Both the position numbers and the translations under genes were made by a program. The notes beneath the pieces are model-generated. The model made no database searches. It saw only the letters and a program-made list of their open reading frames with translations, and was not told the DNA's origin. 44,578 nucleotides of DNA from contig NZ_PVNB01000031.1 in assembly GCF_003001995.1 (NCBI RefSeq), forward strand, positions 1-44,578, read 5' to 3'. Source of the stretch: Orenia metallireducens. GTDB lineage: Bacteria > Bacillota > Halanaerobiia > Halobacteroidales > Halobacteroidaceae. Positions 1,006-32,594 of this stretch are shown here, in pieces. Every line of letters begins with the position of its first letter. Position 1 is the first letter of the stretch.

Positions 1006-1491
1006 TTGGAGTTTAACTTAATAGATATTGTAGTGATTATTCTTGCAGTAGTATTCATGGTTAAGGGATATAGGTTAGGTTTAATTAAACAGTTAACTGC
1101 AATATTAGCTATTATAATTGCTATTTATGTTGCTCAAGAGCAGTATACAATTATTGCAGAGTTTTTAGTTAAGGAATTTGATCTTGCTTTAAAATTAGGA
1201 AAAATAATCTCTTTCTTTTTAATTGTTGTGATTGTTACTTTGTTAATTAATTATATAGGATATTTTCTTACTCAATTATTAGATATAATCTTTTTATCTT
1301 TTATTGATAATTTTGGTGGTTTATTATTTGGACTTATTAAGGGAATTTTAATCTTATATATTGGACTGTTATTATTAAATATTATTCCTATAGAGCTGTT
1401 AGAAAAGGAGATTAATCAATCTTATTTTGCTCCTAAGATATTAAGCTTTAGTTCAGTTGTTGATAAAAAAATTGAAGAATTCTCGAAATGA
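1006..1491 (+). CDS. CvpA family membrane protein
   Basis: This 161-residue, very hydrophobic protein has about four membrane segments (roughly residues 5-22, 28-45, 65-90 and 100-127) with short charged loops. It matches the colicin V production (CvpA) family by topology, the N-terminal pattern IDIVVIILAVVFMVKGYRLG and its place between zapA and polX. The family's biochemical role is not settled; in enteric bacteria it is linked to envelope stress and colicin V export. The TTG start directly follows the zapA stop and has GGGAG about 10 bases upstream, implying tight co-expression. Confidence 0.85.
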   Translation: MEFNLIDIVVIILAVVFMVKGYRLGLIKQLTAILAIIIAIYVAQEQYTIIAEFLVKEFDLALKLGKIISFFLIVVIVTLLINYIGYFLTQLLDIIFLSFIDNFGGLLFGLIKGILILYIGLLLLNIIPIELLEKEINQSYFAPKILSFSSVVDKKIEEFSK

Positions 1492-1512: not shown

Positions 1513-3189
1513 ATGAATAATTTAATAGTCAGTTCAATCTTTGATGATATTATGAATTTATTAAAGATAAAAGGGGCAAATAGCTATAAAATAAGAGCTT
1601 ATGAAAGGGCTAGCAAACTCATTAGGGATTTAGAAGTTGATGTAGCCCAATTAATCAAAGAAGGTAGGCTGACAGAGATTTCTGGTATTGGAGAGAGCTT
1701 GGCGGAGAATATTAAAGAGATAGTTGAAACTGGGAGTTGTGAGGATTATAATCTTTTGATCAATGAATATCCAGCTACATTAATTTCTTTGTTGAAGGTT
1801 TCTGGAGTGGGTGCCAGTAAAGTTAGACAATTTTATAATGAGCTTGGAATTAAAGATTTAAATGATCTAAAGAAGAAAGCCGAAGTAGGAGTATTATCTC
1901 AATTATCTGGAATTGGTCCTAAAACTGAAAATAAGATTTTAGAGAGTATAGATAAGCTGTTATCTGAAAAAGATAAGTTTAATTTAGGAGAGGCAACTCA
2001 TCTAGCCAATCAGCTAAAAGATTATATTGAAGCTTTTAAAGAGGTTGATAATGTTAAGGTAACAGGTGCTATTAGAAGAAAAGAAGAGGTCATTGATCAG
2101 ATTGATTTAGTTATAGCAACTGATAATTTCAACAAAACAGTTGAACGACTTGAGAAAATTTCTATTATCTCAAATATAGATAAACTAGCTCATCAGACTC
2201 TTGTAGTTGATACTAAGCTAGGAATTAAAATCAAAATATCTGTAACTGATAATAGATCCTTTTGGGAGGAGGTCTTTTGGTCAACAGCTTCCAAAGAATA
2301 TAGTCAAAGATTACAGGAAATTATTGATGATAAGGGAAAGGATACATCTATAGATGATTTTAAAGATGAACAGGAGATGTTTAAATCTCTTAATTTACCT
2401 TATATTATCCCTGAATTGAGAGATGATTTAGAGAGTATAGATAGAGCTCAAAATTATAAGTTGCCTAATAGTATTGAACTAAAAGATATTAAAGGTGATT
2501 TACATATGCATTCTAGATGGAGTGATGGTCGATATACCATTAAGGAGATGGCTCGAGCTTGTCAGCAAAAGGGGTATAAATATATGGCTATTTGTGACCA
2601 TACTCAGTCCTTAACTGTAGCCAATGGCCTAAGCCCTGATAGATTGAAATCCCAGTGGGAAGAGATAGATAAATTAAATGAGAGCTTAGATATTACTATT
2701 TTAAAAGGAGCTGAGGTGGATATCTTAGCTGAGGGATTAGATTATAGTGATGATATTTTAGCTCAGTTAGATATAGTAATAGCATCTATACACAGTGGAT
2801 TTAATAATTCTAGTGAGAAGATGATGGAGAGAATCATAAGAGCATTAGAACATCCTCATGTCCATATTTTAGCACATCCTACAGGTAGAATAGTTCTTGG
2901 CAGAGGAGCATATAATATTGACTTTGAAAGGTTTATACATAAAGCCATAGAGACTAATACTATCTTGGAGATTAATGCATCACCTAAAAGACTAGACTTA
3001 AATCATCAGCAGGTTAAATTAGCTCATCAATTAGGTGCTAAATTTATTATCAATACAGATGCTCATAAGACTAAAGATTTAGATAATATGGGAATTGGTG
3101 TTTCAGTGGCTAGGAAGGGCTGGCTAGAGAAAGATGATGTAATTAATACTCTAGAGCTAAGTGAATTTAAAAAGCTTTTAGCTAAATAG
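1513..3189 (+). CDS. polX: PolX-type protein: helix-hairpin-helix, degenerate Pol beta domain, PHP phosphoesterase
   Basis: Family X DNA polymerase architecture, 558 residues. An HhH-rich 8-kDa-like domain (1-150, with SGIG and SGVG hairpins) leads to a Pol beta-type palm (about 160-310) and a C-terminal PHP domain (about 325-558). Bacterial PolX fills gaps in base-excision repair, and its PHP domain gives 3'-5' exonuclease and AP-endonuclease activity. The PHP metal motifs are intact: HMHSRWSDG, CDHTQS, GAEVDI, IHSGF, HPTGR and NTDAH. The palm is odd. In the usual GSxRR(x6)DxD motif the first Asp is Gln196, the Ser is Ala186, and the third catalytic Asp is Lys241; only Asp198 remains. I infer a nuclease/AP enzyme with little or no polymerase activity. 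ATG 1513 has GGAGG nine bases upstream. Confidence 0.87.
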   Translation: MNNLIVSSIFDDIMNLLKIKGANSYKIRAYERASKLIRDLEVDVAQLIKEGRLTEISGIGESLAENIKEIVETGSCEDYNLLINEYPATLISLLKVSGVGASKVRQFYNELGIKDLNDLKKKAEVGVLSQLSGIGPKTENKILESIDKLLSEKDKFNLGEATHLANQLKDYIEAFKEVDNVKVTGAIRRKEEVIDQIDLVIATDNFNKTVERLEKISIISNIDKLAHQTLVVDTKLGIKIKISVTDNRSFWEEVFWSTASKEYSQRLQEIIDDKGKDTSIDDFKDEQEMFKSLNLPYIIPELRDDLESIDRAQNYKLPNSIELKDIKGDLHMHSRWSDGRYTIKEMARACQQKGYKYMAICDHTQSLTVANGLSPDRLKSQWEEIDKLNESLDITILKGAEVDILAEGLDYSDDILAQLDIVIASIHSGFNNSSEKMMERIIRALEHPHVHILAHPTGRIVLGRGAYNIDFERFIHKAIETNTILEINASPKRLDLNHQQVKLAHQLGAKFIINTDAHKTKDLDNMGIGVSVARKGWLEKDDVINTLELSEFKKLLAK

Positions 3190-4825: not shown

Positions 4826-7198
4826 ATGGATAAACATGCATTGAAAGTCCTGGAGTTTAATAAGGTAAAGGAACAGTTACGAAAACATATCAGTAGTAAG
4901 CTGACAGAGACCTTTGTCGATAATTTAGAGCCTAAAACTGAAATGGACTATATTAGAGCAAGGCAAGAAGAGGTAAGTCAGGCCAAACAGATCTTAGTAA
5001 AGGAAGAAAGACCTCCCTTTGGTGGAATCTATGATATTAGAGATTCACTGTCAAAGGTAGAGAAGGATATTGTTTTATATGGTGAAGAGCTACTAAATAT
5101 CCTAAATACTCTGGTGACTGGTCATCGCTTGAGCAATTATTTTGCTAACTTAGATGATGAGGATAATGAGTATTATAGGATAATCAATCTAGCAAGTAAT
5201 ATTGGAAGCTTTAAGGAGTTAGAAAGGACTATTAAAGGGGCAATAGATGAGCGAGGAGAGGTTAAGGATGATGCTAGTGTTCGCTTAAGGGAGATTAGAA
5301 AGAATATCAGAAGAACCAGTGAAGGTATTAGAGATCAATTGAACTCTATTATCAATTCAAGTCGTTATCGTAAGTATATTCAGGAATCTGTAATTACAAT
5401 TCGTGACAATAGATATGTAATACCAATAAAAGCAGAAGCACAACATCAAGTACCAGGAATTGTTCATGACCAATCGGCTAGTGGTCAGACCTTATTTATT
5501 GAACCTATGCCTGTAGTTAAACTCAATAATAAGCTTCGCCAACTATCCTCCCAAGAGGAAGAAGAGGTCTATCGAATCTTAAAGGAGTTGTCTTTGAAGG
5601 TAAAAGAGAGAGTAGATGATATCAAAGATACTGTACAGATATTAGCGATATTGGATTTTATCTTTGCTAAGGCTAAATACAGTACTGAAATAAGTGGTTC
5701 AGAACCTTTACTTAATAGTGATGGAGAGATTAAACTAATTAAGGCTCGCCATCCATTGATAACAGGTGATGTAGTGGCTAATGATGTTCAGTTGGGTAGA
5801 GACTTTAATACCCTTGTAATTACTGGCCCTAATACTGGAGGAAAGACTGTTACCTTAAAGACTGTGGGATTATTGATTTTAATGTCCCAATCTGGTTTAC
5901 ATATTCCAGCATTATCAGGTTCTAGTCTTGCGATCTATCAACAGGTCTATAGTGATATAGGCGATGAGCAGAGTATTGAGCAGAATTTAAGTACCTTCTC
6001 TTCCCATATGAATAATATCATCAAAATTATTGAAGAGGTTGATGATAATTCACTAGTATTATTAGATGAGTTAGGGGCTGGTACTGATCCTGCTGAAGGT
6101 GCAGCTTTAGCTATGTCTTTGTTGGATTATTTACATCAAAAGGGTGCTAAGACTATTGCTACAACCCATTATAGTGAACTTAAAACCTACGCCTATTCTA
6201 ATGAAGGGATTGAAAATGCTTCAGTAGAATTTGATGTTGAGACTTTACAGCCTACTTATAGACTGCAGATGGGGCTACCAGGTAGTAGTAATGCCTTTCA
6301 AATAGCCAGTAAGCTAGGTCTAAGAGAGGATATAATTGAAGGGGCTAATAATTTATTAGCAAAGGATAATATCGAGTTAGATAATATCTTAAAGGAGATT
6401 GAACAGGATAGAAAAGAGTACAATGATAAGAAGGAAGAAGCAGAGCAAATTAATCAAGAAGTTAAAAGACTTAAAGAGGAGTATGAAGAAAAACTTAAGT
6501 CTTTGGAAGAGAGAGAAGAAAAGGAGTTAAAAGAAGCCTATCGAGAAGCCAATAAAATTATCAAAAGGGCTCAAGATAGAGCAAATAAGATAATAGATGA
6601 GCTAAAAGAGAAGAAGCGGGCTAGTGATAGAGAAATTGAAGAGGCAAGAAGTGGATTACGGGAAGAGCGCAAAGGTATTAAAAGTCAAGAGGGTAAATTA
6701 GTTGAAGAAGCAAGGAAGAATAGGGGAGTTCCTGACTTAGAAGTTGGTGATAAGGTTAAAATTGTTAGTTTAAGCAAGAAGGGTGAGGTTCTTCAGTTAT
6801 TCCCTGATAAGAAGCAGGCTCTTGTTCAAGCAGGGATTATGAAGGTAAATGTAGATTTAAGAGATTTAGAGGAGGTAAAGGGCAAGCAGCAAGATAAGGA
6901 TGATAGTAACTTTGCTAAGGTTAATTATAGTAAGGTTAAAGGCAATAAAGCAAGAAATATCTCTCCGAAGTTGGATTTAAGGGGAATGAGAGCTTTAGAT
7001 GCTAAGATGAAGGTTGAAAAGTACTTAGATGATGTGATGCTAACCAATCTAAGTCAAATTGAGATTGTTCATGGTAAGGGTACAGGGGTCTTAAAGGATG
7101 TAGTCCATGAGATTTTGGATAATTATCCAAGTGTACAGGAATATCGCTTTGGCAAGCCTCAAGAGGGTGGATTTGGAGTTACTATAGTAAACTTTTAA
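4826..7198 (+). CDS. mutS2: MutS2 ATPase/endonuclease
   Basis: A full-length 790-residue MutS2. It has an N-terminal core and clamp (1-300), an ABC-type ATPase with Walker A GPNTGGKT and signature/Walker B DELGAGTDPAEG, a long charged coiled coil (about 510-620), a KOW-like stretch and a C-terminal Smr domain with LDLRGM and HGKGTG. MutS2 suppresses homologous recombination in some bacteria. In Bacillus it was reported to act on collided ribosomes, splitting them upstream of ribosome quality control. Family lengths are about 780-790 residues, so nothing is missing. The ATG at 4826 has AAAGGTGAT upstream. It ends at a bidirectional terminator facing the PBP gene. Confidence 0.95.
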   Translation: MDKHALKVLEFNKVKEQLRKHISSKLTETFVDNLEPKTEMDYIRARQEEVSQAKQILVKEERPPFGGIYDIRDSLSKVEKDIVLYGEELLNILNTLVTGHRLSNYFANLDDEDNEYYRIINLASNIGSFKELERTIKGAIDERGEVKDDASVRLREIRKNIRRTSEGIRDQLNSIINSSRYRKYIQESVITIRDNRYVIPIKAEAQHQVPGIVHDQSASGQTLFIEPMPVVKLNNKLRQLSSQEEEEVYRILKELSLKVKERVDDIKDTVQILAILDFIFAKAKYSTEISGSEPLLNSDGEIKLIKARHPLITGDVVANDVQLGRDFNTLVITGPNTGGKTVTLKTVGLLILMSQSGLHIPALSGSSLAIYQQVYSDIGDEQSIEQNLSTFSSHMNNIIKIIEEVDDNSLVLLDELGAGTDPAEGAALAMSLLDYLHQKGAKTIATTHYSELKTYAYSNEGIENASVEFDVETLQPTYRLQMGLPGSSNAFQIASKLGLREDIIEGANNLLAKDNIELDNILKEIEQDRKEYNDKKEEAEQINQEVKRLKEEYEEKLKSLEEREEKELKEAYREANKIIKRAQDRANKIIDELKEKKRASDREIEEARSGLREERKGIKSQEGKLVEEARKNRGVPDLEVGDKVKIVSLSKKGEVLQLFPDKKQALVQAGIMKVNVDLRDLEEVKGKQQDKDDSNFAKVNYSKVKGNKARNISPKLDLRGMRALDAKMKVEKYLDDVMLTNLSQIEIVHGKGTGVLKDVVHEILDNYPSVQEYRFGKPQEGGFGVTIVNF

Positions 7199-30730: not shown

Positions 30731-30764
30731 TAAATAGGAGTGAAATTTGGGAGGTGAATGGTCT

Positions 30765-31061
30765 TTGGTGCCTTCTTTTTTAGTTGAGTTATGCTCAACA
30801 TTGATGGATGGCTTAATGTTATTGGTATCATATATCTCTAATGGTACTACCTTTGCACAGCCTTTATCCAAAGAGGAAGAAGAAGAGTGTTTAAAGAGAT
30901 TGGCTGAAGGGGATTTAGCAGCTAAGGATGAGCTAATTGAACATAATATGAGATTGGTAGCCCATATTGTTAAAAAATTTGAAAATACTAACGTAATAAA
31001 GTTACAATACATACCTAAGAAAATTACCACTTATACACAACCTCTATCAGATTCTTTTTAG
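30765..31061 (+). CDS. sigK: sigK 5' half (pro-sigma-K N-terminus), interrupted by skin element
   Basis: Residues 1-76 match the N-terminus of pro-sigma-K. A hydrophobic pro-sequence (MVPSFLVELCSTLMDGLMLL then VSY at 21-23) leads to FAQPLSKEEEEECLKRLAEG and region 2 IEHNMRLVAHIVKKFENT (59-75). Then homology stops: the expected EDLISIGTIGLIKA continuation is absent, and 22 unrelated codons run to a stop inside the recombinase's antisense end. Sigma-K directs late mother-cell genes of sporulation. TTG 30765 is seven bases after GGGAGGTGA. In Bacillus sigK is split in the same manner by skin. The 3' half is expected beyond the window. Confidence 0.85.
   Translation: MVPSFLVELCSTLMDGLMLLVSYISNGTTFAQPLSKEEEEECLKRLAEGDLAAKDELIEHNMRLVAHIVKKFENTNVIKLQYIPKKITTYTQPLSDSF
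30985..30996. other. sigK/skin junction (attL region)
   Basis: Similarity to sigK ends within or just after GAAAATACTAACG (codons E-N-T-N). The crossover must therefore lie close to here. Exact core bases cannot be set without the other junction. Confidence 0.6.
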
Positions 31062-32472
31062 AACTTACTCTAACTTCTTTGATGATTCTACTAACAGCAT
31101 TTTTCTTTCTTTGAATAGGGGAATGGCTTTTTAAAGTTTCTATTACATCTCTTAAGGTGGTCATAAAAGATTCTTCATCAATAGTCTTTTCTTTTATCTT
31201 ATTTTCTAAGGTTTTAAATTCAGTTAATAGCTCTTCTTTTTCTTCTTTAAGTCTATCTTTATAACTCTGTAGCTGCTTTAAATTAATTACTCCTGCTTCA
31301 TAAGCCTTCATCTGTCTTTCAAATTGTTTGTCAAAGTTATTTAACTTGTCCTTAATACTCTCATATTTCTTTTCTAGGCTATCTGTTTGACTTACTAATA
31401 TATTTAGTTTATTAATGTCTACTTCACCCCTTGAGACACTTTCTAGGGCTTGTATAAAATACTTTTCTATCTTATCCATATTATTAGAGTTACCATAACA
31501 GTTATTATACTTGCCATGATTAGTACAACGAGCATATACATAGGTCTTTACCTTTCCAGAGGCTAATGTTTGTCTAGAGAATTGACGATGCATAGTACCA
31601 TGACATTCATAACACTTTAAGACTCCTTGTAGTAGGTAAGGGTCATATTTATCATAATTTCTTCTAGTCTTTCTTTTCTGAGTTAAGTCTTGGACTAATT
31701 TAAAGTCACTTTTAGAAATAATAGGGGAGTGGTTATTTTCAATTTTAATATCTTGCCATTCAAAGGTTCCAATATAAGCATTGTTCTGTAATATTCTAAG
31801 AATAGTAAGGTTGTTCCACTTCATAATCTCACCAGTTGATTTTTCTAAAGAGAAGTCATGTTCATTCTCTTGGAGAGCTAAGGCTATTTTCTGAGTTCCT
31901 TTTCCATCAATGTATTCTTGGAAGATGTATTTAACTATTTCAGCTTCTTGTTCTTGAATTTGATACTTGCCATCTTCTCCAATAATATAACCAATAGGGG
32001 GTTTACCTACTGCTTGACCAGCTTTAGCTTTTTCACGTTGACCTTTTTCAACTTCACGAGCTAAGTTTTCAGAGTAGAATTCTGCTATGACTTCAAGGAT
32101 ACCTTCAATCATTTTACCAATAGGTCCTTCTCCAAAATCCTCTTTAATAGCTATTACATCTACTTCACAATCTCTACGAAGTAAGGACTTATAGACTATA
32201 GAATCTTCACGATTACGAGCAAATCTATCGGTCTTATGAATCAGTACAGCATCATAGTTTCCCTTATCATTTTTAATATCTTTAATCATTTGTTGGAACT
32301 GTGGTCTATCGGCTGTTTTGGCACTTTCTCCTTTATCTACATACTCAGCTACTACCTCATAGCCATTCTCTACTGCATAATCACGAAGTTGACTGATTTG
32401 AGCATCAATAGATAGTCCTTCTTCAACCTGTATCTTGGAAGATACACGAGCATAGATGACTGCTTTTTTCAT
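31024..32472 (-). CDS. spoIVCA: large serine recombinase, SpoIVCA-like
   Basis: A 482-residue large serine recombinase. The resolvase domain (1-~145) has catalytic Ser11 in YARVSS and the conserved arginines of HKTDRFARNRED. A recombinase domain (about 160-265, GKPPIGYIIGEDGKYQIQ) follows, then a zinc ribbon (CYECHGTM...CTNHGKYNNCYG), a coiled coil (about 350-440) and a C-terminal helix. SpoIVCA cuts and rejoins the skin ends in the mother cell, restoring sigK; location beside the split sigK supports this specific role. ATG 32472 has AAAGGAG eight bases upstream; GTG 32481 overlaps the SD. Its 3' end is antisense to the read-through tail of sigK. Confidence 0.88.
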   Translation of the reverse strand: MKKAVIYARVSSKIQVEEGLSIDAQISQLRDYAVENGYEVVAEYVDKGESAKTADRPQFQQMIKDIKNDKGNYDAVLIHKTDRFARNREDSIVYKSLLRRDCEVDVIAIKEDFGEGPIGKMIEGILEVIAEFYSENLAREVEKGQREKAKAGQAVGKPPIGYIIGEDGKYQIQEQEAEIVKYIFQEYIDGKGTQKIALALQENEHDFSLEKSTGEIMKWNNLTILRILQNNAYIGTFEWQDIKIENNHSPIISKSDFKLVQDLTQKRKTRRNYDKYDPYLLQGVLKCYECHGTMHRQFSRQTLASGKVKTYVYARCTNHGKYNNCYGNSNNMDKIEKYFIQALESVSRGEVDINKLNILVSQTDSLEKKYESIKDKLNNFDKQFERQMKAYEAGVINLKQLQSYKDRLKEEKEELLTEFKTLENKIKEKTIDEESFMTTLRDVIETLKSHSPIQRKKNAVSRIIKEVRVSSKKNLIEVVYKW

Positions 32473-32594
32473 AATGTTCACTCCTTTCTCTATTAATTAT
32501 AGACTAGTAATGAAAAAAAGAAAAATCCTTTATTTTCTTTAGATGATATTCTGTAGCTTTACAATATTGCTGTGTATATATTAATCTTATAAAT

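Follow-up and report, generated by a model that had tools for sequence, protein, structure and literature searches.

The polX gene and its surroundings

The window (the whole stretch of Orenia metallireducens DNA analysed here, 44,578 nucleotides) carries a polX gene whose 558-residue product is encoded in a frame that is open throughout, beginning with an ATG at 1513 and preceded by a GGAGG ribosome-binding site at 1499-1503; its flanking genes are a cvpA-like gene and mutS2 (Table 1). With 515 bits the product passes the cut-off of 426 for NF006375, the NCBI equivalog for PolX; it can be aligned over its whole length with T. thermophilus PolX (E 4.7e-93) and has the PolX architecture of 8-kDa, thumb, palm, fingers and PHP domains. 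The Pfam models HHH_8, HHH_5, HHH and PHP are all above cut-off but the palm model (16.7, cut-off 25) and the thumb model (21.1, cut-off 25) are below it, and this points independently to the polymerase core as the part of the protein that has eroded. An AlphaFold model (pTM 0.74, with the orientation of the domains uncertain) retains the fold of PolX and is confident in the palm, where pLDDT is about 83-92 per block, and a structure search with this model gave the PolX proteins of T. thermophilus and D. radiodurans as best matches. No second full-length or canonical PolX was found in the genome, the three other matches being stand-alone PHP proteins.

Table 1. Features of the polX locus (positions in the window; Tth, T. 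thermophilus PolX)
Feature	Position	Strand	Basis
CvpA-like gene, conserved neighbour upstream of PolX	1006..1491	+	
PolX gene: 8-kDa domain, thumb, degenerate palm and fingers, intact PHP domain	1513..3189	+	domain/profile matches
8-kDa and thumb helix-hairpin-helix DNA-binding domains (about residues 1-150); Asn66 at Pol beta Lys72 position	1513..1962	+	
GAIRR (residues 185-189), degenerate GSxRR motif; Ser to A186; Tth has GSARR	2065..2079	+	
Gln196 codon, replaces first catalytic Asp (Tth D198)	2098..2100	+	
Asp198 codon, only triad residue kept (Tth D200)	2104..2106	+	
Lys241 codon, replaces third catalytic Asp (Tth D243)	2233..2235	+	
WSTASK (residues 256-261), degenerate YxTGSK dNTP-binding motif; Tth has YLTGSK	2278..2295	+	
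Fingers deletion site, about 10 residues; 48 residues vs 57-58 in most relatives	2347..2352	+	
PHP nuclease domain (about residues 326-558), nine metal ligands and conserved DNA-path residues F430, R459, R464, N488, R493, K535	2488..3186	+	
mutS2, conserved neighbour downstream of PolX	4826..7198	+	

Further along the window, at 30747-32481, the coding sequence for the first 72 or so residues of the sporulation sigma factor SigK (30780-30992, plus strand) is joined without a break to a gene for a large serine recombinase on the minus strand, and phage-like genes then continue to about 43.3 kb, near the end of the contig. It is likely that a 'skin'-type element interrupts sigK in this member of the Halanaerobiales; no separate C-terminal part of SigK is listed elsewhere in the genome, and it may be unassembled.

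The polymerase active site

The palm aligns without gaps over 118 residues to residues 160-277 of T. thermophilus PolX and is unchanged in length (101 aligned residues in both), and in this alignment the catalytic residues Asp198, Asp200 and Asp243 of the T. thermophilus enzyme correspond to Gln196, Asp198 and Lys241. The first-pass annotation had claimed just this, that Gln196 and Lys241 replace catalytic aspartates with Asp198 the only survivor and that the serine of GSxRR has become alanine, and both observations are confirmed. Misalignment or a sequencing error hiding real aspartates at the catalytic positions has a practically negligible probability. Asp195 adjoins Gln196 and was considered as a shifted catalytic residue, but the gap-free palm alignment rejects this, as do homologues in which an acid at 195 is additional to the Asp or Glu at 196 (LIDDIDLL in L009, IIDEIDLV in L005); as relatives that keep an acid at 196 also have the one at 195, Asp195 is not a displaced catalytic residue. 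In the model residue 195 just precedes the palm-sheet strand that bears 196 and 198, with 241 on another strand. No shift in the alignments with T. thermophilus PolX and with relatives, comparisons of the kind that the annotation had proposed as a check, puts Asp at the catalytic positions, and a sequencing error is contradicted by an altered state that is common to several independent genomes.

Changes that the annotation had not mentioned are the degraded WSTASK motif, in which the steric gate tyrosine is replaced by tryptophan and the GS pair by AS, the deletion of about 10 residues from the fingers, which is common to the window's family and one member of the sister family, and Asn66. The last was entertained as a second dead site, through loss of the lyase lysine, and dropped; it says little because that lysine is also missing in most canonical relatives. 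Among the other PolX sequences L042 (G031) has fingers of 119 residues as against the usual 57-58 together with an alignment gap over the 8-kDa/lyase region, which may be an insertion or an artefact of extraction.

A canonical polymerase has three acidic metal-binding residues, and the triad here is QDK. The non-acidic triad replacements, dNTP-site substitutions, fingers deletion and intact PHP metal site are instead the features of the 'noncanonical PolX' defined by Prostova et al. (2022, NAR 50:6398; PMC9226535), which make up 27.5% of prokaryotic PolX proteins, Firmicutes included. That group has the domain order found here and likewise combines a triad altered to uncharged or positive residues, lysine among them, with degraded GSxRR and YxTGS motifs, fingers that are shortened, and 8-kDa, thumb and PHP domains that are intact (PMC9226535). 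In noncanonical PolX deletions in palm and fingers are common, not universal, and co-occurrence with NHEJ (Ku/LigD) is statistical, not defining. The full-length palm differs from that of the tested Deinococcus proteins, which form a separate lineage with palm deletions; those of D. radiodurans and D. gobiensis show no polymerase activity and work efficiently as Mn2+-dependent 3'-5' exonucleases, and an early report of activity for D. radiodurans PolX (triad AEE) was later not reproduced (PMC9226535). The smaller noncanonical groups of Firmicutes lie apart from the main cluster (PMC9226535). Compared with canonical PolX (T. thermophilus 3AU2/3AUO, B. subtilis) the protein has full-length homology, the same domains and the same PHP site, but two of the three polymerase metal ligands and the dNTP motif are lost and the fingers are about 10 residues shorter. 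The actinobacterial PolX-like proteins are similar in keeping the PHP nuclease without a working polymerase, but lack the polymerase region altogether whereas here it is present and degenerate (PMC12926913).

The dead polymerase proposed in the annotation is thus supported by loss of two ligands, most of the dNTP pocket and part of the fingers: with metal binding and the dNTP pocket lost, nucleotide transfer should be absent. What counts against this is D198. It is conceivable, if very unlikely, that the palm keeps a weak or altered nucleotidyl transfer through Asp198 and other acids, or one seen only with Mn2+, as D198, the palm fold and the Arg pair of GxxRR are all kept and purifying selection still acts on the palm (see below). 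A lysine at the metal-binding position of the third Asp is hard to reconcile with such an activity, as are the lost dNTP motif, the shortened fingers and the occurrence of KSE, EIR and ELR at the same sites within the family, which indicates that there is no consistent replacement. Moreover, mutation of a single triad residue abolishes the polymerase of B. subtilis PolX and leaves its 3'-5' exonuclease (PMC9226535).

The PHP domain, selection and predicted activity

All nine PHP ligands (H331, H333, D338, H363, E401, H427, H455, D516 and H518, with H333 assigned from sequence and invariant alignment columns) are kept in the window gene and in its lineage, in agreement with the annotation. B. 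subtilis PolX needs F440, R469, R474, N498, R503 and K545 for access of DNA to the PHP site (PMC6616362); going by the residue numbers in the papers and a constant offset of 10, these would correspond to the DNA-path residues of Table 1, all of which are present.

Divergence is unevenly distributed over the protein. In the altered family the palm/PHP divergence ratio is 2.3 (range 2.0-3.2) and the fingers/PHP ratio 2.0, as against 1.2 and 0.65 in the canonical f3 genomes. For the pair L001/L005 dN/dS is 0.43 in palm plus fingers and 0.14 in PHP, and across old divergences the PHP value is 0.10-0.17, these absolute values being rough as some pairs are near saturation at synonymous sites; the bootstrap ratio of palm plus fingers to PHP for L001/L005 is 3.1 (95% 1.5-6.6), and two canonical control pairs gave ratios of 0.5 and 1.5, both with intervals that include 1. 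Constraint is strong on the nuclease and DNA-binding parts and relaxed, though not absent, on the polymerase core; dN/dS of the core is well below 1, suggesting that the region retains some function, perhaps only a structural one. The annotation had read the kept PHP motifs as selection for the nuclease/AP activity alone. The contrast between PHP and palm plus fingers bears out the emphasis on the nuclease, but the word 'only' in that reading goes slightly too far, as the DNA-binding domains are conserved too and the palm is partly constrained.

From the residues kept and lost, and by analogy with the characterised proteins, the protein is very probably a noncanonical PolX with a palm that does not transfer nucleotides and a PHP domain acting as a 3'-end-cleaning Mn2+-dependent nuclease. 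At the level of sequence the three-metal site and basic DNA path are intact, and by comparison with characterised homologues the PHP domain would act as a Mn2+-dependent 3'-5' exonuclease, a 3'-phosphatase/phosphodiesterase and possibly an AP endonuclease. Most likely, by homology, the 8-kDa and thumb domains would bind gaps or ends while PHP trims or cleans the 3' ends, and resynthesis would fall to other polymerases such as Pol I. As genes for Pol I, Nfo and Xth are present in the genome, PolX need not be required for filling gaps or cleaving AP sites, and with two other AP endonucleases present its role at AP sites may be redundant.

Native polX genes in related genomes

The five PolX proteins of the window's family have the triads QDK, EDK, KSE, EIR and ELR, all altered and each differently, and the same-family relatives with altered triads have the gene at the same cvpA-polX-mutS2 locus. 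In the sister family (the Acetohalobium group) the triads are DDD, DDD, DDE, DDE and QDE (glutamate is counted as acidic, following Prostova et al.) and the dNTP motif is lost in all five (e.g. AATGNQ). The more distant families f3, f7 and f9 are canonical, with DDD and YFTGS or HFTGS. In a tree of 77 PolX sequences, built without the palm and fingers columns, the five altered family members form one clade (support 100) that is sister to the Acetohalobium group (support 99), and the state of the triad changed at least six times over the tree as a whole. The most economical interpretation is that failure of the dNTP pocket in the ancestor shared by both families was followed by erosion of the triad, which each branch underwent on its own. 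L037-L039 (G015, G024 and G022) have a full DDD triad with a degraded dNTP motif (ATTGNS), and are thus canonical if judged by the triad alone, yet probably impaired.

Most genomes of the class have PolX in the interval between cvpA and mutS2, but it is missing from there in G003, G004, G005, G025 and G030. In G030 and in G004 and G005, which belong to the same family as the window and are without PolX, cvpA and mutS2 are present with no polX between them, while G003 and G025 have a canonical DDD PolX elsewhere, and these two sequences group together (support 98) in another part of the tree. G014, G015, G022 and G024 combine an altered native PolX with another copy, away from the locus, that has an acidic triad; in G017 the native triad is DDE with a degraded dNTP motif and the canonical copy is again elsewhere. 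Each of these last five genomes has two PolX genes (L034/L035 vs L027/L030; L041, L043 and L045 vs L037-L039). With native copies lost or degraded and other copies elsewhere, the native PolX of the class tends to give up polymerase function and is occasionally replaced. The absence of the native gene from the cvpA-mutS2 interval in five genomes would fit a gene that is heading as a whole for pseudogenisation, the conservation of PHP being merely a lag, but we regard this as highly improbable given that the frame is open in all five lineage members and that the low PHP dN/dS and the retention of every ligand indicate strong purifying selection.

Among Firmicutes with altered PolX 11 of 12 genomes have NHEJ (PMC9226535). 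In contrast, no Ku was found in any of the eight genomes of the window's family (including G000) by a search that did recover the Ku of B. subtilis and identified Ku in 7 of 41 genomes, so the proposed partnership with NHEJ does not explain the retention of PolX here. Earlier work describes the enzyme class, what it does and how PHP is the more strongly kept part (PMC9226535; PMC12926913), and the literature searched contained no paper on PolX from this family; what this analysis contributes is the resolved order of decay and the history of the locus within one lineage, together with the absence of Ku.

Taken more widely, it is possible, though we put this forward tentatively, that the native cvpA-mutS2 PolX of the Halanaerobiales and their relatives follows a fixed sequence in the decay of its polymerase (dNTP pocket, then triad and fingers). 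Its exonuclease would remain under selection, in the absence of any Ku-type NHEJ, up to the point at which the gene disappears, or at which an acquired canonical PolX elsewhere in the genome joins or replaces it. If this is true, the long-term role of PolX in these bacteria would be Ku-independent 3'-end processing. The family provides a phylogenetically resolved case, with no Ku found, of a polymerase that has apparently become a repair factor with nuclease activity only. It speaks for the published view that, of the functions of bacterial PolX, the PHP nuclease is the one more strongly retained, and weakens the idea of NHEJ as a general reason for keeping it.
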